Part shown: piece after piece, positions 5,204 through 33,614 of the stretch
How positions within the stretch are numbered: the first letter of the stretch is position 1
Layout of the letters: each line of letters opens with the position of its first letter
Source: Dysgonamonadaceae bacterium
Lineage (GTDB): Bacteria; Bacteroidota; Bacteroidia; Bacteroidales; Azobacteroidaceae
DNA length: 34,577 nt
NCBI GenBank assembly: GCA_031260045.1
Contig: JAIRKO010000057.1
Coordinates: forward strand, 1-34,577
Direction: 5' to 3'
The notes under the pieces: model-generated
Database searches by the model: none
The model's input: only the letters and a program-made list of their open reading frames with translations
What the model was told of the DNA's origin: nothing
Translations under genes and position numbers: made by a program

Positions 5204-6484
5204 TTAGCGCATCATTCGGAGTAGCACGGCATTTTTATGGGCTGTCATCTGTTCGTTTTCCGCTAAAATCCCGATGGTTGCCCCCAAATGTCGTATGCCG
5301 TCTTTTGAAATCTCTTGAAAGGTGATTTTCTTCGTGAAACTGTCTAAGTTAACGCCGCTGTACATGCGGGCGTAGCCGTTTGTCGGCAGGGTGTGGTTAG
5401 TTCCAGAGGCGTAGTCGCCCGCGCTTTCGGGGGTGTAGTGTCCGAGAAACACCGAGCCGGCATTGGTAATTTGGTCGGCAAGTGAGCGGTAGTCCTTTGT
5501 TTCAATAATTAGATGTTCCGGCGCGTACAGGTTGGTCAGTTCGACGATTTCTTCGCGGGTGCGCAACACAATGATGCGGCTGTGGGCAAGCGACTTTTCC
5601 GCCTGTTCCTTTCGCGGCAGCGTATTTAACTGGCTGAGAACTTCCCGCGCAACGGCTTCGGCGAGCGTTTCGGACGTTGTGAGCAAAATCGCCTGACTGT
5701 CGGCGCCATGCTCGGCTTGCGAGAGCAAATCGGCGGCGACAAAATCGGGATGCGCCGTTTCGTCGGCAATGACTTCCACTTCCGAAGGACCGGCGGGCAT
5801 GTCGATGGCGACTTCTTTCAAACCGACCGCCTGCTTGGCAGCCGTTACGTATTGATTGCCTGGACCGAATATTTTATATACTTTGGGAACGCTTTCCGTG
5901 CCGTAAGCCATCGCGCCGATAGCCTGTGCACCGCCGATTTTGAAGATTTTATCCACGCCCGTCGCTTCCGCTGCGAAAATCACGGCAGGGTGAATTTTCC
6001 CGTCTTTGTCGGGCGGCGTGCAGAGAACGATTTCCCTGCAACCGGCAATTTTAGCGGGTATGGCAAGCATCAAAACGGTGGAAAACAACGGCGCCGTCCC
6101 GCCCGGAATGTAGAAACCGACCTTTTCGATGGCAACGGCTTTTTGCCGGCACACAACGCCCGGACTGGTTTCTATTTCCGCAAACGTTTGCTTTTGCGCC
6201 GCGTGGAACTTTTCGATATTGGCTTTTGCCTGTAAAATGGCTTGCTTCAAGGCTTGGGAAACTGCGGTTTTGGCTTCCGCTTTTTCCGCTTCGGAAAGGA
6301 GTAAAGCATCGGGGGTCGCGTGGTCAAATTCCCGTTCATAGCGGCGAACCGCCTCATCTCCGTTTGTCTTCACGTCGTCCAAAATCCCGCCAACCACGTC
6401 CGACAAACGGCTCGCATCCATAGACGGACGGCGGATTAACGCCTCCCACTCGCTTCGGGGCGGATAGTTAATTGTTTGCATCAT
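5204..6484 (-). CDS. hisD: Histidinol dehydrogenase
   Basis: Catalyses the last two steps of histidine biosynthesis (L-histidinol to L-histidine, NAD-dependent, zinc enzyme). The 426-residue length is normal. Seen motifs: FYIPGGTAPLFSTVLML (124-140), FGPGNQYVTAAKQAV (206-220), DMPAGPSEVEVIAD (228-241), LLSQAEHGADSQ (253-264, zinc ligands Gln256 and His259), YAPEHL (320-325, catalytic Glu323 and His324), and ESAGDYASGTNHTLPT (353-368, Asp357). His416 near the end is the last zinc ligand. The ATG at 6484 overlaps the hisG stop as ATGA; a second ATG follows at once. It is coupled to hisG, but no hisC or hisB follows. Confidence 0.96.
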   Translation of the reverse strand: MMQTINYPPRSEWEALIRRPSMDASRLSDVVGGILDDVKTNGDEAVRRYEREFDHATPDALLLSEAEKAEAKTAVSQALKQAILQAKANIEKFHAAQKQTFAEIETSPGVVCRQKAVAIEKVGFYIPGGTAPLFSTVLMLAIPAKIAGCREIVLCTPPDKDGKIHPAVIFAAEATGVDKIFKIGGAQAIGAMAYGTESVPKVYKIFGPGNQYVTAAKQAVGLKEVAIDMPAGPSEVEVIADETAHPDFVAADLLSQAEHGADSQAILLTTSETLAEAVAREVLSQLNTLPRKEQAEKSLAHSRIIVLRTREEIVELTNLYAPEHLIIETKDYRSLADQITNAGSVFLGHYTPESAGDYASGTNHTLPTNGYARMYSGVNLDSFTKKITFQEISKDGIRHLGATIGILAENEQMTAHKNAVLLRMMR

Positions 6485-15431: not shown

Positions 15432-15562
15432 ATTATATTGTTTTTAATTCAATGTTTATAAAAATTAATCTTTATCCGGCAAATTAAACAATTTCCTGAT
15501 TTCTTCCATAGATTTGCCTTATATCGCCCGCATTGCGGAGTTGCACTTCAATATTTGGTAGT

Positions 15563-15667
15563 TTAATCTTCTTCATTGGAAGATTTTTTTTTGTCAATTA
15601 TCAATAAGATAATTGTTGTAATGATTGCAATTACTGAAATTCCTAAATAAAATGTTGATAGAGTCAT
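15563..15667 (-). CDS. 34-residue single-pass membrane micro-protein (cassette A, second gene)
   Basis: ATG at 15667, stop at 15563. The product MTLSTFYLGISVIAIITTII continues LLIIDKKKSSNEED: one membrane span (about residues 5-24), then a lysine cluster, then an acidic tail. The start overlaps the stop of the preceding 68-residue gene as ATGA, so the two are very likely co-translated. I know no family for it. A structurally matching gene of exactly the same length lies at 32971-33075, also directly downstream of a small two-span protein. Arguments for reality are the overlap, the membrane-protein pattern and the second example. Confidence 0.6.
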   Translation of the reverse strand: MTLSTFYLGISVIAIITTIILLIIDKKKSSNEED

Positions 15668-15870
15668 AATTTTCTTTTTAGTTTAAAAAATGTTATTGCT
15701 GCGATAAATAATACTACGATTGTCGTTATTGCGCTGAATTGCATTCGTAATGGGTTGTCTTTGTTTTGTTCGAGGATTAAGGTAATAATGATACCTCCGA
15801 TAATTAGTTGAATGATATTGATACACATATCTCCAATTTTTTCATTTAGATCAATTTTCTTGTTTTCCAT
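15664..15870 (-). CDS. 68-residue two-span membrane protein (cassette A, first gene)
   Basis: The product starts MENKKIDLNEKIGDMCINII and has two hydrophobic spans (about residues 17-34 and 45-62) joined by a short polar loop (EQNKDNPLRMQ), ending in KLKRKL. The layout (charged N-terminus with an 'IG' motif, hairpin of two spans, basic end, about 60 residues) is shared with the gene at 33080-33256, and may correspond to the Bacteroidota family DUF6722, which I recall only vaguely. The stop overlaps the start of the 34-residue partner. Lies in the unusual rpoB-rpoC interval, same strand as both. Function unknown; both ends of the hairpin should face the same side of the inner membrane. Confidence 0.65.
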   Translation of the reverse strand: MENKKIDLNEKIGDMCINIIQLIIGGIIITLILEQNKDNPLRMQFSAITTIVVLFIAAITFFKLKRKL

Positions 15871-15881
15871 ATAAAAAATAT

Positions 15882-15968
15882 TTAAGTGAATAATTCCAGT
15901 TGTTGGCTGCCGTCCTTTAGTTCTTTGTCAACGATGTAAATGTTTTTGTTGTAAAATTCAGCAGGCAT
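15882..15968 (-). CDS. Very short ORF or 3' gene fragment before cassette A
   Basis: ATG at 15968 gives 28 residues, MPAEFYNKNIYIVDKELKDG then SQQLELFT, ending 11 bases before the 68-residue gene. The frame is also open for nine codons upstream (KPNLRNNR before the ATG), back to a TGA near the palindromic repeat. It could be a small leader protein of the cassette or the tail of a larger gene destroyed when the repeat inserted. I do not recognise it. Confidence 0.25.
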   Translation of the reverse strand: MPAEFYNKNIYIVDKELKDGSQQLELFT

Positions 15969-16004
15969 CCGATTATTTCTAAGGTTTGGTTTCAAATTGT
16001 CGCA

Positions 16005-16097
16005 GCGTCATTGCGAAGGTGAAGCCTGAAGCAATCCAGAAAAAAACCTCTGCGTAATTCTCTGGATTGCTTCACCGCTTCGCGGTTCGCAATGACG
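16005..16097. repeat. Palindromic intergenic repeat, copy 2 (complete)
   Basis: Left arm starts GCGTCATTGCGAAGGTGAAG and ends in GCAATCCAGA; right arm starts TCTGGATTGCTTCACCGC and ends in TTCGCAATGACG. It lies between rpoB and rpoC, between the lipoprotein genes and cassette A. The bases from 16098 to 16223 show nothing further that I can support. Confidence 0.85.
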
Positions 16098-16223
16098 TAT
16101 GCGGTATTTTGATTTCACTGCTACGCCCGCAATGATGTCTGTAATAATTTAGCCTCGCGAAAATTTGAAACGCACCCGTTTCTGAGGCGAATTTAAGCAA
16201 AAAATCTGAAATTAATCATTTTC

Positions 16224-16700
16224 TTAACGCTTAACTCGTTCATAAATCCACAGCAACGGCTGCGGTATATCAGTGATATTCCCATGCAACAACTTCATTT
16301 CGATTTTATTTTCCTTCGCGTCCGTAAACCGCCAGCCGTAAATAAACGTGCAACACTCCCCTTTTACATTGTCGTAGTATATATACAAGGAATCCGATTT
16401 CAGTTCAAAGGTTTTCAGGCGCGCGTCGGTGTGGGCGGTATCGTGATAATGTTTCACTGTTCCGTCGGGGAAAAACTCCCAAACCCGGTAATCGTCCACC
16501 GCGCGGAGAAGCGTATAATCCCACGCATCATTTTCTTCGATTATTTTCCATTGACCGGCGATTGACGGGACGTCCGCAGGGTTTTCGCTCGGCTTCCGTT
16601 CGGACGGATTAGCCGCCACCACTTCCGGCTCGTGGGTTTCAAAACAAGCCATTGCGATACTCAGGGCAAAAAGAGCAAATAAAAATTTTAGCGTTCTCAT
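16224..16700 (-). CDS. Lipoprotein with a lipocalin-like domain
   Basis: A 158-residue protein with signal peptide and lipobox (MRTLKFLFALFALSIAMAC, Cys19), then a Pro/Glu-rich linker (ERKPSENPADVPS) and a compact domain starting SIAGQWKIIEE and including VWEFFPDGTVKHYHD and SLYIYYDNVKG. This 'GxW...F..DGTV' pattern is typical of small lipocalin-like/META-type beta-barrel lipoproteins of Bacteroidota. Expected location: inner leaflet of the outer membrane or inner membrane. The start overlaps the stop of the upstream lipoprotein gene as ATGA, so the two form a unit. It sits between rpoB and rpoC. No specific function is suggested. Confidence 0.8.
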   Translation of the reverse strand: MRTLKFLFALFALSIAMACFETHEPEVVAANPSERKPSENPADVPSIAGQWKIIEENDAWDYTLLRAVDDYRVWEFFPDGTVKHYHDTAHTDARLKTFELKSDSLYIYYDNVKGECCTFIYGWRFTDAKENKIEMKLLHGNITDIPQPLLWIYERVKR

Positions 16701-17166
16701 TCTATTGACGATAATTCAAAAATATTGGCAGGCATATATCGCGCATTGGGAGCGGACATTATGACAGAACAATTCGTAACGTCCCCGCTTATCCGAACCT
16801 GCAAGCCGTCGACCCGATACGCTTCGGGAACGGGATAGCGGGCAACAATCGGGCAGGGCATCACCTTTTCATACATGTTTTGCAACTCAAACGCAAACGT
16901 GTCGATACTTTCCGCTTCGATGTCGATGAAAATATCTTTGCCTATCGTTTGAAAAATATTATTTCGCCGGACGGTAGCCGGTTCGTTAACCAACACCTTT
17001 ACCGTTTGTTTATCCGTGCAGGGCGCATAGGTAACGGTGGCAAATTTGGGAGTTTCCGAATCACCGGTTTCCGGTTTCGATGGGGCGTTGGTTCAGGAGC
17101 GTCGCCGGAACAAGCTATGAGCATGAATAGGGCGAGGGGTGCGAATGTGAATTTTAGTAGAGTCAT
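16697..17166 (-). pseudogene. Lipoprotein gene interrupted by a one-base frameshift in a C run
   Basis: The ATG at 17166 gives MTLLKFTFAPLALFMLIACS, a clean lipoprotein signal (Cys19), followed by GDAPEPTP. At the CCCC run in 17083-17086 this frame leaves the sense path; the next frame reads PSKPETGDSETPKFATVTYA and stays open to the stop at 16697, ending NIFELSSIE. Adding one C to the run would join the two into a protein of about 156 residues with a proline-rich linker reading PEPTPPSKPETG, which is fully natural. So this is one gene with a single-base deletion: a phase-variable tract, a fresh pseudogene, or a sequencing error. The C-terminal domain is unknown to me. The stop overlaps the next lipoprotein start. 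Confidence 0.75.
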
Positions 17167-17216
17167 TTTATTTAATTACGAACTACGAATTAAGAATTAG
17201 GGGGTATTTCAACCTC

Positions 17217-17240
17217 ACTGCGTCGCTTTCGCAATGACGG
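17217..17240. repeat. Palindromic repeat, half copy 3
   Basis: CTGCGTCGCTTTCGCAATGACG: only the CGCAATGACG end of the repeat remains, shortly upstream of the frameshifted lipoprotein gene and after rpoB. Confidence 0.5.
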
Positions 17241-17341
17241 GTGCGTCTCTTTTGCATTTCATCTTGCGATGGTGAAAGTTACGATTTTAGAGCCGCGATA
17301 CTTGTCCTGCGCAGGATAATGTTTTTCCCGCCGCCGCGCCC

Positions 17342-20300
17342 TTACTCCAACCGCACGCTCAACCCCAGCCCCCGCATCTCGTGGAGCAACACATTCAGCG
17401 ATTCGGGAATGCCCGGTATAGGCAGCAGATCGCCTTTCACAATCGCCTCGTAAGCCTTAGAACGACCCATCACATCGTCCGACTTAAGCGTCAATATTTC
17501 CTGCAAAAGAAACGACGCGCCGAACGACTCCAACGCCCAAACTTCCATTTCCCCGAAACGCTGCCCGCCGAATTGCGCCTTACCGCCCAAAGGTTGCTGC
17601 GTAATCAGCGAATAAGGACCGATGGAACGGGCGTGCATCTTATCGTCGACCATATGACCGAGTTTCAGCATATAAATCATGCCGACCGTAGCGGGCTGGT
17701 CGAAACGGTCGCCCGTGCCGCCGTCGTAAAGGAACGTGCGCCCGCAACGGGGAAGTTCGGCTTTGTCAGTCCATACGTTTAAATCGGCGAGCAAAGCCCC
17801 GTCGAAAATCGGCGTCGCAAATTTCATATCAAGAATTTTGCCCGCCCATCCCAAAACTGTTTCAAAAATCTGCCCCAAATTCATACGGGAAGGCACGCCA
17901 AGCGGGTTCAGAACAATATCCACCATCGACCCGTCTTCGAGGAACGGCATATCTTCGTCGCGCACAATCCGCGAAACGATGCCCTTGTTCCCGTGCCGCC
18001 CCGCCATCTTGTCGCCCACTTGCAGCTTGCGTTTTTTGGCAATATACACCTTCGCCAACTGAATGATGCCCGACGGCAGTTCGTCGCCAATGGTAAGGTC
18101 AAGTTTTTTGCGGCGTAGTTCGGCGTCATGTTCCTTGTATTTCTTTATAAAATTATTGATTACATTCTTAATCATGGTATTTTTAACGGGATCCAGCGTC
18201 CATTTGGTTACCAGCACTTCGAGGAAATCAATTTTATCCAGTTCCTCACGGGTAAACCGCGCTCCTTTCGGAATAATTTCCACGCCCATGAAATCTTTCA
18301 CGCCCTGCGACACTCTGCCGTCGGTGATGACGCACAATTTATCGAGCAACATTTCCCTGAGCGCCGCTACCACTTCATCAAAAGCGTCGTCCAACAGGGG
18401 TAATTTCGCCTTTTCCGCCAAACGGGCTTTTCTGTTTTTTGCATTCAAAATACCGGCTTTCGAGAACAGGCTACGCCCGACGACCACGCCCCGCAACGAC
18501 GGCGGCGCCTTTAATGAAGCGTCTTTCACATCGCCGGCTTTGTCGCCGAAGATGGCGCGGAGCAATTTTTCTTCCGGCGATGGGTCGGTTTCGCCTTTCG
18601 GCGTAATTTTACCAATCAGGATGTCGCCCGGTTCCACCCGCGCACCTACGCGAATCATGCCGCGTTCGTCCAAATTACGGGTGGCGTCTTCGCTGACATT
18701 GGGAATATCGGGGGTCAGTTCTTCCGTTCCGCGCTTGGTTTCGCGCACTTCCAAAATGTATTCGTCCACATGCACCGACGTGAAAACATCTTCCCGCACC
18801 ACCCGTTCGCTGATTACAACCGCATCCTCAAAATTATAGCCTTTCCAAGGCATAAACGCCACTTTCAGGTTTTTTCCGATGGCAAGTTCGCCCTGTTCGG
18901 TGGAATAGCCTTCGGTGAGAATTTGGTTTTTCACAACGCGGTTGCCCATTCTCACAATCGGGCGTAAATCGACGGTCGTATTCTGGTTTGTTTTCCTGAA
19001 TTTCGGGATAATATAGGTTTTCAGCGCCGGCTCGAAACTGACAAATTCTTCCGTTTCGGTGCGGTCATATTCAATGTCAATGCGGGCTGCGTCTACATAA
19101 GTTACTCTGCCGTTTCCTTCGGCGGTAATTTGCGTGCGGGAGTCCGTAACCAGCCTGCCTTCGATGCCGGTTCCGACAATCGGGGCTTCGGGCGTCATCA
19201 GGGGAACGGCTTGGCGCATCATGTTTGAACCCATCAGGGCGCGGTTGGCGTCGTCGTGTTCAAGAAAAGGAATCAGCGCGGCGGCAATCGAGGCGATTTG
19301 CGTGGGCGAAACGTCCATCAAGTCTATCGCTTCCGGCTCAATAATCGGATAATCCGCATCCTGCCGCGCTTTGACGCGATGACCGGTAAAAAACCCTTCG
19401 TCGTCCATCGGCGCATTGCCTTGCGCGATTACTCTGCTTTCTTCTTCTTCTGCCGTCAAGTATATAATGCCGTTGTCCGCCAAATTTACCTTTTTGTCGG
19501 CAACGCGGCGGTAGGGCGTTTCAATAAAACCGAGTTTATTTATTTTCGCATATACGCAAAGCGACGAAATCAAACCGATGTTCGGTCCTTCCGGCGTTTC
19601 AATTGGACAGAGGCGACCGTAATGCGTATAGTGTACGTCGCGAACTTCAAAACCGGCGCGTTCGCGCGACAAACCGCCAGGTCCCAAAGCCGACAGACGG
19701 CGTTTGTGCGTAAGTTCCGCCAGCGGATTGGTCTGATCCATGAATTGCGACAAAGCATTGGTGCCGAAAAACGAATTGACTAAGGAAGAAATCGTTTTTG
19801 CATTAATCAGATCGATGGGAGTAAACACTTCGTTATCGCGCACATTCATGCGCTCGCGGATGGTACGCGCCATACGCGCCAACCCGATGCCGAACTGGGC
19901 GTATAACTGCTCGCCGACGGTGCGCACGCGGCGGTTGCTCAAGTGGTCGATGTCGTCCACGCTTGCTTTGGAATTGCTTAATTCGATCAGGTATTTGATA
20001 ATTTCGATAATGTCTTCTCTGGTGAGGACTTTCACGTCGGAAGAGGTGGTGAGGTTCAGTTTTTTGTTGATTCTGTAACGACCTACTTCGCCCAAATCAT
20101 ATCTTTTTTCGGAAAAAAACAGGTTGTGGATTACTTCCCTTGCGCTGGTATCGTCGGCGGGGTCGGCACTCCGCAATTGACGGTAAATGTAAACGATGGC
20201 GTCGCGTTCGGAGTTGCTGGGGTCTTTTTGCAAGGTATTGTAAACAATGGCAAAGTCGGAAAGGCTTTGGTCTTCGCGGTGCAGCAAAACGGTTTGAACG

Positions 20301-21178
20301 CCCGAAGAGCGGATTTGGTCAAGGTGTTGCTCTTCAATCTGGGTTTCGCGGTCAATTAACACTTCGTTCCGTTCGATGGAAACGACTTCGCCCGTATCTT
20401 CATCGACAAAATCTTCCACCCAACTTCTCAACACGCGCGCCGCCAGTTTCCGCCCGACGGATTTTTTCAGATTGGTCGGATTCACCTTGATTTCTTCGGC
20501 GAGATTGAATATGCCCAAAATATCTTTGTCGCTTTCAAAGCCGATGGCTCTTAACAGCGTGGTTACGGGCAGTTTCTTTTTCCGGTCAATATAGGCATAC
20601 ATCACATTGTTGATGTCGGTTGCAAATTCAATCCACGAACCTTTGAAAGGAATGATACGCGCCGAATACAATTTAGTGCCGTTGGAATGGGTGCTTTGCC
20701 CGAAAAACACGCCCGGCGAACGATGAAGCTGGGAAACCACGACCCGCTCGGCGCCATTGATGACGAACGTTCCTTTGGGCGTCATATAGGGGATGGGACC
20801 TAAGTAAACGTCTTGCACCACCGTATCGAAATCTTCATGATCGGGATCGGTACAGTAGAGTTTCATTTTTGCTTTGAGCGGAACGCTGTATGTCAAACCT
20901 CTGTCAACGCATTCTTCGATGGTATAACGCGGGGGGTCGATGAAATAATCCAGAAACTCAAGGACAAAGTTGTTGCGGGTATCCGTAATCGGGAAATTTT
21001 CGGCGAATACTTTGTACAAACCTTCGTTTTTTCTCTTTTCGATGGGGGTATCCAATTGCAGGAAATCTTGGAAAGACTTCAATTGCACTTCGAGGAAATC
21101 AGGATAAGGCAAGTTTTTTTTTATCGACGCGAAGTTAATTCTTTTGTCGCTGTTCGTTGTTGTTTTTTTTTGAGACAT
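17342..21178 (-). CDS. rpoB: RNA polymerase beta subunit
   Basis: Second large subunit of RNA polymerase, 1278 residues, full length. The rifampicin-binding region is seen as [20 protein letters not shown] followed by [19 protein letters not shown], with wild-type-looking residues (the S, H and S positions are all present). The C-terminus includes [15 protein letters not shown] and [20 protein letters not shown], which form part of the active centre and clamp. The start [20 protein letters not shown] is the natural one. It follows rplL after 326 bases (repeat and hairpin), and is separated from rpoC by 1.9 kb of unrelated genes. Identification is secure. Confidence 0.99.
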
Positions 21179-27389: not shown

Positions 27390-28271
27390 TTAAGCTCTCG
27401 GATGAGCCTGATGATATACTTTTTTTAATTCTTCAAAAGTTGTATGCGTGTAAACTTCGGTTGAAGAAAGACTTGCGTGTCCCAATAATTCTTTAACGGC
27501 ATTCAAATCCGCACCGTCGTTCAGCATACTTGTCGCAAAAGTGTGCCGCAACACATGAGGGCTTTTTTTAGACAGGTTCGGGATTTCGGACAGCCGTTTA
27601 GTTACGATACCATATATAATTGAATTGGATAATGTTTTGCCGTTTTTCCGGACAAAAAAGGCATTATTCGCCGGCGTTTCTATTGTTTCACTCCTTATAT
27701 TAATATAAGACTGCAAAACATCCCTCAAAGTATCGGAAAACGGTATCAAGCGCTGTTTGTTTCTTTTTCCGATTACTTTTATCGTTTTGGCTTGAAAATC
27801 AACATCTTCGTTTTTCAAACCGGCTAATTCGGCGCAACGAATACCGGTTGTGTAAAAAACGTCTAAAATCGCTTTATCGCGTTCCCCTTCAAAAGCGTCT
27901 TCATCGTCCCAACCGGAAAATAACTTTGCCATATCCAAATCTTTAACAAAATGCGGAAGCGGTTTTTTCACCTTCGGTCCCCGTATGTTTTTGAGCGGAG
28001 TGGTTTCAATATATTTATTTTTACACAGATACTTAAAGAACGATTTCAAAGAACTTAATTTTCGGTTTACGGAGAGCGGAGAGTAATTTTCACTCATCAG
28101 GAAAACAATCCACCGCCGCACCCACACGGCGTCAATTGTTTCCGGTTGAAAAGCGGAATCGCCGGCTACAAATTCCTTAAACTGATACAAATCATTTTTG
28201 TAAGACTCAACCGTATGAGCGGAATAATTTTTCTCATACAGCAAATACTGTAAAAACGATTCTATCATCAT
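27390..28271 (-). CDS. xerC: Tyrosine recombinase, XerC/XerD type
   Basis: Site-specific recombinase, 293 residues, most likely the housekeeping enzyme that resolves chromosome dimers. The N-terminal SAM-like domain (about 1-90) is followed by the catalytic domain with Arg145 (TTGIRCAELAGL), Lys169, His239 and Arg242 (PHVLRHTFATSML), His265 (LLGHASLSSTEVY) and nucleophile Tyr274. All catalytic residues are present. Two ATGs are adjacent at 28271 and 28268. The setting rpsU-xerC-hpf is a conserved Bacteroidota arrangement as I recall it, which argues against it being a mobile-element integrase despite the nearby tRNA genes. Confidence 0.92.
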   Translation of the reverse strand: MMIESFLQYLLYEKNYSAHTVESYKNDLYQFKEFVAGDSAFQPETIDAVWVRRWIVFLMSENYSPLSVNRKLSSLKSFFKYLCKNKYIETTPLKNIRGPKVKKPLPHFVKDLDMAKLFSGWDDEDAFEGERDKAILDVFYTTGIRCAELAGLKNEDVDFQAKTIKVIGKRNKQRLIPFSDTLRDVLQSYINIRSETIETPANNAFFVRKNGKTLSNSIIYGIVTKRLSEIPNLSKKSPHVLRHTFATSMLNDGADLNAVKELLGHASLSSTEVYTHTTFEELKKVYHQAHPRA

Positions 28272-28349: not shown

Positions 28350-28541
28350 TTATTCTTCTGCCTGATATAATTTTTGAACGTAAATAGCGTGAACTTTTTG
28401 TTTTCTTTTTTCAACAGACGGTTTTGTGAAGGCTTGTCTTTTACGCAGTTCTTTAGTCACACCGGTCTTTTCTAATTTTCATTTGAACATTTTTAAGGCG
28501 CGTTCAATATTTTCGCCTTCCTTCAATGGAACGATAATCAT
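28350..28541 (-). pseudogene. rpsU: 30S ribosomal protein S21 gene with an in-frame TGA at codon 21
   Basis: From the ATG at 28541 the frame reads MIIVPLKEGENIERALKMFK, then TGA (28481-28479), then KLEKTGVTKELRKRQAFTKP and on to VHAIYVQKLYQAEE and a TAA at 28350. The two halves together are a normal 63-residue bS21; the stop replaces a residue that is Arg or Lys in the family, so one C-to-T change (CGA to TGA) explains it. Everything after the stop is still conserved and the promoter is intact, so the lesion is recent or a sequence error. TGA is used as a normal stop by glyS, hisG and others here, so a changed code is unlikely. bS21 sits next to the anti-Shine-Dalgarno of 16S rRNA. Confidence 0.9.
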
Positions 28542-28595: not shown

Positions 28596-28626
28596 CAAAG
28601 ATAGAGGAAAGTTTCTCAATAACAAA
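28596..28626 (-). promoter_or_regulatory. Promoter of rpsU-xerC-hpf
   Basis: The minus strand reads TTTG (28626-28623), 19 bases, TATCTTTG (28603-28596): a full match to the Bacteroidota promoter, about 55 bases before the rpsU ATG. Confidence 0.85.
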
Positions 28627-28699
28627 ACATTTTTAAATTGTTTTTAAAAACAAGCCGTTTTTTTGTAGATTAACAAAAGGAAAGGTTTCATTTATTTTG

Positions 28700-28774
28700 T
28701 CGAGGTACCAAGATTCGAACTTGGGACCCCCTGCTCCCAAAGCAGGTGCGCTAACCGGACTGCGCTACACCTCG
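28700..28774 (-). tRNA. tRNA-Pro (anticodon TGG)
   Basis: 75 nt: acceptor CGAGGTG/TACCTCG (one G-U pair), anticodon stem CCTGC/GCAGG around loop TTTGGGA (anticodon TGG), T-loop TTCGAAT, discriminator A. CCA is not encoded. Confidence 0.96.
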
Positions 28775-28870: not shown

Positions 28871-28962
28871 GCGTCATTGCGAAGGTGCAGTCTGAAGCAA
28901 TCCAGAGCCAACCACCGCGCAATTCTCTGGATTGCTTCACCACTTCGCGGTTCGCAATGACG
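28871..28962. repeat. Palindromic intergenic repeat, copy 5 (complete)
   Basis: Left arm starts GCGTCATTGCGAAGGTGCAG and ends in GCAATCCAGAG; right arm starts CTCTGGATTGCTTCACCAC and ends in TTCGCAATGACG. It lies between tRNA-Pro and the end of the zinc-ribbon gene. Confidence 0.85.
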
Positions 28963-33331: not shown

Positions 33332-33404
33332 AATCGCTTATTCTGTGGAAACACAGGCGGACATTGCATTGCGGTCTTGCGTAAAGCAATTACCCTTTGT
33401 TGAG

Positions 33405-33614
33405 ACGCTTCCGGAAACATACAAAAGTCTCTTGCAGGAGTGCGGGACACTTTCGGAAGCATACAAAAGTCTCTCGTAGGGGTGCGAAACACTTTCGGGA
33501 ACATACAAAAGTCTCTCGCAAGGGTGCGGGACACTTTCGGAACTTCCGAAAATGAGAAATCGGTTTGCGAGCCATTTTCGGAACTTCCGGAAACGCAAAA
33601 ACCGGTTTGCGGGA
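33405..33614. repeat. Tandem array: five 42-bp units of two subtypes
   Basis: Units start at 33405, 33447, 33489 (subtype 1, core CATACAAAAGTCTCT) and 33531, 33573 (subtype 2, core TCGGAACTTCCG and CGGTTTGCG), together exactly 210 bases. All begin with a form of ACACTTTCGGAA. Because 42 is a multiple of three and no stop occurs, all three minus-strand frames stay open through it, giving 14-residue repeats such as RTPARDFCMFPKVS or ERLLYVPESVPHPC. I recall similar repeat peptides as spurious ORFs in other Bacteroidota, so I treat it as a minisatellite, not a gene. It fills the 440-base gap between cassette B and frdB, flanked by terminators. Confidence 0.85.

Follow-up and report, generated by a model that had tools for sequence, protein, structure and literature searches.

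The rpsU gene, encoding ribosomal protein bS21, is interrupted by a premature in-frame TGA at codon 21, and the 42 codons 3′ of this stop are intact (28541..28350, minus strand; positions refer to the window, by which we mean the whole stretch of DNA analysed, 34,577 nt). What lies behind this stop and the clustered lesion to which it belongs? Most probably the cause is mundane, be it a genuine null allele or a consensus error confined to this locus, and as it stands the finding points to no new genetic code or mechanism. At close to even chances, we favor a real loss-of-function allele of an ordinary rpsU that is the sole copy and whose loss is tolerated.

Read through the stop, the frame belongs to the bS21 family, scoring 62.9 bits against PF01165 (cut-off 27). 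The 42-aa C-terminal piece alone scores above the cut-off (31.4 bits, E 1.6e-7) and the 20-aa N-terminal piece alone below it (23 bits, E 6.5e-5). An intact relative's bS21 matched 25 distinct PDB sequences, with no bearing on the interruption. The open frame of ~63 codons expected of a functional bS21 is absent, given the TGA at codon 21. The sequence-only reading had described exactly this: a bS21 frame complete except for a TGA at 28481..28479, undamaged downstream codons, and a position that is Arg or Lys in the family—true of all 98 other distinct sequences, which include the best 80 of 181 loci. Its proposed promoter likewise holds up. The upstream elements correspond to a Bacteroidetes-type promoter (Table 1), and both are kept in three of the four closest relatives (L037, L034, L039), the fourth (L035) lacking the G of TTTG. 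No Shine-Dalgarno-like run was seen 5′ of the rpsU ATG, in agreement with a reported survey in which no Bacteroidales qualified as having a strong Shine-Dalgarno sequence at rpsU (PMC9976891).

Table 1. Features in and around the interrupted rpsU. The comparison with 98 other distinct sequences includes the best 80 of 181 loci.
Feature	Coordinates	Strand	Remark
rpsU (bS21) frame, 63 codons + TAA, broken at codon 21	28350..28541	-	Both flanks of the stop match PF01165
In-frame TGA, codon 21	28479..28481	-	Arg in 97, Lys in 1 of the 98 others
Codon 18, ATG (Met)	28488..28490	-	Lys in 95, Arg in 3 of the 98 others
Codon 23, TTA (Leu)	28473..28475	-	Phe in 76, Tyr in 22 of the 98 others
Three A/T transversions unique to the present sequence, 8 nt apart (28489, 28481, 28473)	28473..28489	-	
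rpsU promoter: TTTG (28626-28623), 19-bp spacer, TATCTTTG (28603-28596)	28596..28626	-	Read from sequence
tRNA-Pro(TGG), upstream of rpsU	28699..28774	-	
xerC-like integrase (presumed name), intact neighbour, comparison gene	27390..28271	-	

Upstream of the tRNA-Pro gene, positions 28872-28962 hold two nested perfect inverted repeats with arms of 15 and 12 nt, presumably resembling a dispersed intergenic palindrome. Elsewhere in the window, at 33404-33542, lies a tandem array with a 42-bp unit (3.3 copies, 84% matches).

How did the stop arise? Codon 21 is AGA in all four closest relatives (L037, L034, L039, L035), which makes an A-to-T transversion at 28481 the simplest change, rather than a C-to-T transition. 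The single C-to-T step suggested earlier from the sequence alone is thus probably wrong: of the 99 distinct sequences, only two have CGA, from which it would start, at codon 21, neither of them belonging to the four closest relatives, and the alterations extend to codons 18 and 23. These two further changes, K18M (28489) and F23L (28473), each lie 8 nt from the stop-making one, and the remaining seven differences from L037 are all transitions. A/T transversions make up 3 of the 7 lineage-unique changes in rpsU as compared to 60 of 790 in ten neighbouring genes. By rough, after-the-fact reckoning, at least three A/T transversions among seven have a probability of 0.012, and three random sites falling within 17 of 189 nt one of 0.019, which makes a single linked event, be it a biological multi-base mutation or a faulty run of consensus, more probable than three independent ones. 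Clusters of this kind are not unique to rpsU, since another one, with three A/T transversions within 20 nt, occurs in a fast-changing part of rpoB in the same lineage. Two particular routes were considered and rejected: gene conversion, as the derived 21-mer has no second match in the window and the derived 20-mer none in the assembly (up to 3 mismatches), and template switching at a quasi-palindrome, as, judged by eye, only two of the three changes make a local inverted repeat more perfect.

The rpoB region is unusual in its own right. The gene (17342-21178) has 139 nonsynonymous and 238 synonymous unique changes, against at most 51 and 120, respectively, in each of three close relatives; its identity to L188 is 77-88% in 300-nt steps, compared with 88-93% from rplL to nusG, and its best protein match among 33 genomes searched (the present one included) is G018, at 86%. 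Between rpoB and rpoC lies a gap of 1.9 kb (15432-17341) with two small ORFs (158 and 99 aa), the corresponding gap in relatives being ~50 bp (L188), ~280 bp (L191) or ~2.5 kb (L189).

A profile search of the whole source assembly (1.99 Mb, 57 contigs, 81.6% complete), of which the window is one contig, returned a single rpsU match, with one TGA inside. Among 57 relatives searched, 46 have a match (24 of 33 genomes within the genus), and none of these 46 has a stop within the matched stretch; the comparison with close relatives called for by the sequence-only reading thus sets the present gene apart, and the disabling change is absent from the matched relatives, as expected for a null allele. 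For sequence-level comparison, 111 overlapping loci were collected—31 from the assembly and its relatives, 30 of them from the 46 relatives with a match, plus the best 80 of 181—and among the resulting 99 distinct sequences only the present one contains an internal stop. Of 393 sampled genomes of the order, the present one included, 351 gave an rpsU match, with no stops among the matches listed. The nearest named matches are in draft genomes of Candidatus Azobacteroides, Dysgonamonadaceae and Candidatus Symbiothrix, relatives that we take to be termite-gut symbionts. The literature accessible to us, in part, on the genetic code and pseudogenes of Azobacteroides, on rpsU nonsense mutations and on in-frame stops in draft genomes held nothing on the present locus.

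Substitution patterns hint at relaxed constraint on rpsU and fall short of proving an old pseudogene. Its lineage-unique changes are 5 nonsynonymous to 0 synonymous versus 2:11 summed over four relatives (one-sided Fisher 0.0025); once the cluster of three is set aside, little of this excess is left (2:0 versus 2:11, Fisher 0.057), and the two other changes, V53I and H59Y, fall at variable sites. In a comparison based on three relatives, the rpsU count is 6:1 and that of ten neighbouring genes in this lineage 283:507 (Fisher 0.011). The neighbouring genes themselves show a raised nonsynonymous share that is common to the present lineage and relative C (233:457), not A (61:194) or B (75:195).

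A real null allele would imply the following course of events. Three A/T transversions within 17 bp would have arisen in a single local event or through a small number of linked changes, with TGA replacing the conserved Arg codon 21. Translation would stop at this codon, leaving a 20-residue N-terminal stub and losing the C-terminal two thirds; functional bS21 would be missing from ribosomes, a loss tolerated by the cell. With its promoter undamaged and its frame otherwise intact, the gene would have been hit recently. We infer rather than observe that the three bases are real, that the changes have a linked origin, that the protein is truncated and that its loss is tolerated.

A consensus or assembly error, to which we assign a chance somewhat below even, would mean three wrong bases within 17 bp, stemming from a poor read or a low-coverage strain variant, in an rpsU that is in truth intact. 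A conserved frame after the stop is expected from a sequence error too, and speaks to this extent against a null allele; here the frame is perfect on both sides, with no stop in any matched relative. The cluster could stem from a single bad read just as well as from a single mutation, the assembly is a draft in 57 pieces, and the stop was picked as an outlier, which favors rare errors. In addition, an F. johnsoniae bS21 null could not be made and bS21 was called essential there (PMC9976891); this is the sole Bacteroidia species that we found to have been tested. By that result, a fixed null in the sole copy is unexpected, making an error almost as likely as a real allele. Against an error stands the position of rpsU, 6 kb inside the nearer end of the window. 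So does the make-up of the cluster: swaps restricted to A and T are unexpected as short-read errors.

An error-prone assembly might also be expected to contain other interrupted frames, and no general excess of these was apparent in a sample of 432,577 bases (398,000 of further stretches plus the window). At a 40-codon setting, the scan found no TGA-interrupted frame and three candidates, all with TAA, that look like gene boundaries, although L175:7666 among them may represent a broken gene. With the 25-codon setting, one of four candidates has TGA (L175:18133); flanked by ORFs of 496 and 621 codons, it is probably a gene end. At 20 codons, TGA accounts for two of six. The assembly is hence not riddled with stops, as far as the 40-codon setting goes. 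Of stops planted in 174 ORFs, the scan recovered 78, 78 and 61 at 40, 25 and 20 codons, respectively; it therefore misses more than half, and would miss a stop 20 codons from a start.

Could the null allele be real and yet without consequence, with an intact rpsU sitting in the unassembled part of the genome? The search for a second copy proposed by the sequence-only reading, whose list of options (error, fresh null mutation, second copy, recoding) was the right one, found none in the assembly, but ~18% of the genome is missing, and the 16S rRNA and prfB were also not found. Given that two rpsU matches occur in only 3 of the 351 matched genomes of the 393-genome order sample (G268, G270, G404), we consider a hidden copy very improbable.

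Recoding is equally hard to credit. It would require that an amino acid be inserted at the UGA of codon 21, through readthrough, a suppressor tRNA or an altered code, to yield full-length bS21. The conserved frame after the stop would fit, as would the release factors: prfA was found, and prfB (RF2) had no match in the incomplete assembly. We read the latter as incompleteness, as the 16S rRNA—looked for on account of its anti-Shine-Dalgarno sequence—is missing from the assembly too, along with ~18% of the genome, and as prfB scores over the cut-off in two close relatives, G018 (82% complete) and G022 (84%). G018, the closest by rpsU sequence, combines this prfB with AGA at codon 21. The more complete relatives G017 (96%) and G023 (92%) also have no prfB match over the cut-off; a weaker full-length match is present there in the prfB search, and the corresponding match here is prfA.

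UGA is, moreover, a frequent stop. TGA terminates 45 of 174 coding ORFs in the 432,577-base sample and 6 of 25 window genes chosen by hand, at odds with the rarity or absence of UGA stops expected under reassignment. For tuf, the terminating codon is TGA here and in relative C but TAA in A and B, the length being unchanged. TGA had been said to serve as a normal stop in overlapping gene pairs, and both pairs examined bear this out: in the presumed hisG and hisD, the TGA at 6483..6481 overlaps the ATG at 6484, and in the ORF pair 16697-16996 / 16224-16700 the upstream gene's TGA overlaps the next start. A changed code is thus as unlikely as first judged. None of the 32 tRNAs found in the incomplete assembly has the anticodon UCA (tRNA-Trp has CCA). 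The same assembly yielded no tRNA-Sec over the cut-off, as a selenoprotein would require, its eight weak matches falling on ordinary tRNAs, and no RNA structure beyond chance was detected (z 0.06 after the stop, -0.18 around it). Two missense changes beside the stop would also be unexpected at a functional recoding site. In sum, UGA recoding here is unlikely.

Least plausible of all is a split bS21, with the 20-aa N-terminal fragment made alongside a C-terminal one that begins anew at codon 28: there is an in-frame GTG seven codons after the stop, but nothing was seen that marks a start at this position, and no internal stop occurs in the 98 other distinct sequences (including the best 80 of 181 loci). 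Recoding and a split gene, taken together, retain a small share of the probability. That the stop is real and fixed in the sole rpsU, giving a Bacteroidales lineage that lacks full-length bS21 or makes it by UGA readthrough, is a barely better prospect.

If real, the allele would amount to a natural test of translation initiation in Bacteroidia after bS21 loss: in this class bS21 masks the anti-Shine-Dalgarno tail, and with the stop fixed in a sole copy start-site choice would differ from that of the relatives. If an error, it would serve as a reminder that clustered base errors in drafts can mimic the loss of essential genes.

How does this locus compare to known systems? Under UGA reassignment, as in code 4 and similar codes, in-frame UGA codons likewise occur in conserved genes; here, in contrast, many genes end at UGA in the ordinary way, and the tRNAs found in the assembly include none with a UCA anticodon. 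Null and nonsense alleles and pseudogenes of housekeeping genes do occur in bacterial draft genomes. As in those cases, promoter and frame are kept, there is one premature stop and a sole copy was found, but the present rpsU differs in that two missense changes at conserved sites flank its stop. Loss or alteration of bS21 also has precedents among bacteria. An F. johnsoniae strain with codons 43-64 deleted is viable, and its ribosomes are largely without bS21, whose C-terminal part mainly contacts the 3′ tail of the 16S rRNA, and the authors suggest that the N-terminal portion is essential (PMC9976891). The protein is nonessential in B. subtilis and L. monocytogenes (PMC9976891), and rpsU deletion and point variants have been described in the latter, Listeria monocytogenes (PMC11006974, PMC10977602). 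The F. johnsoniae and Listeria mutants are viable laboratory strains, unlike the present allele, and while the F. johnsoniae truncation lacks codons 43-64, the rpsU reported here retains only 20 codons before its stop.
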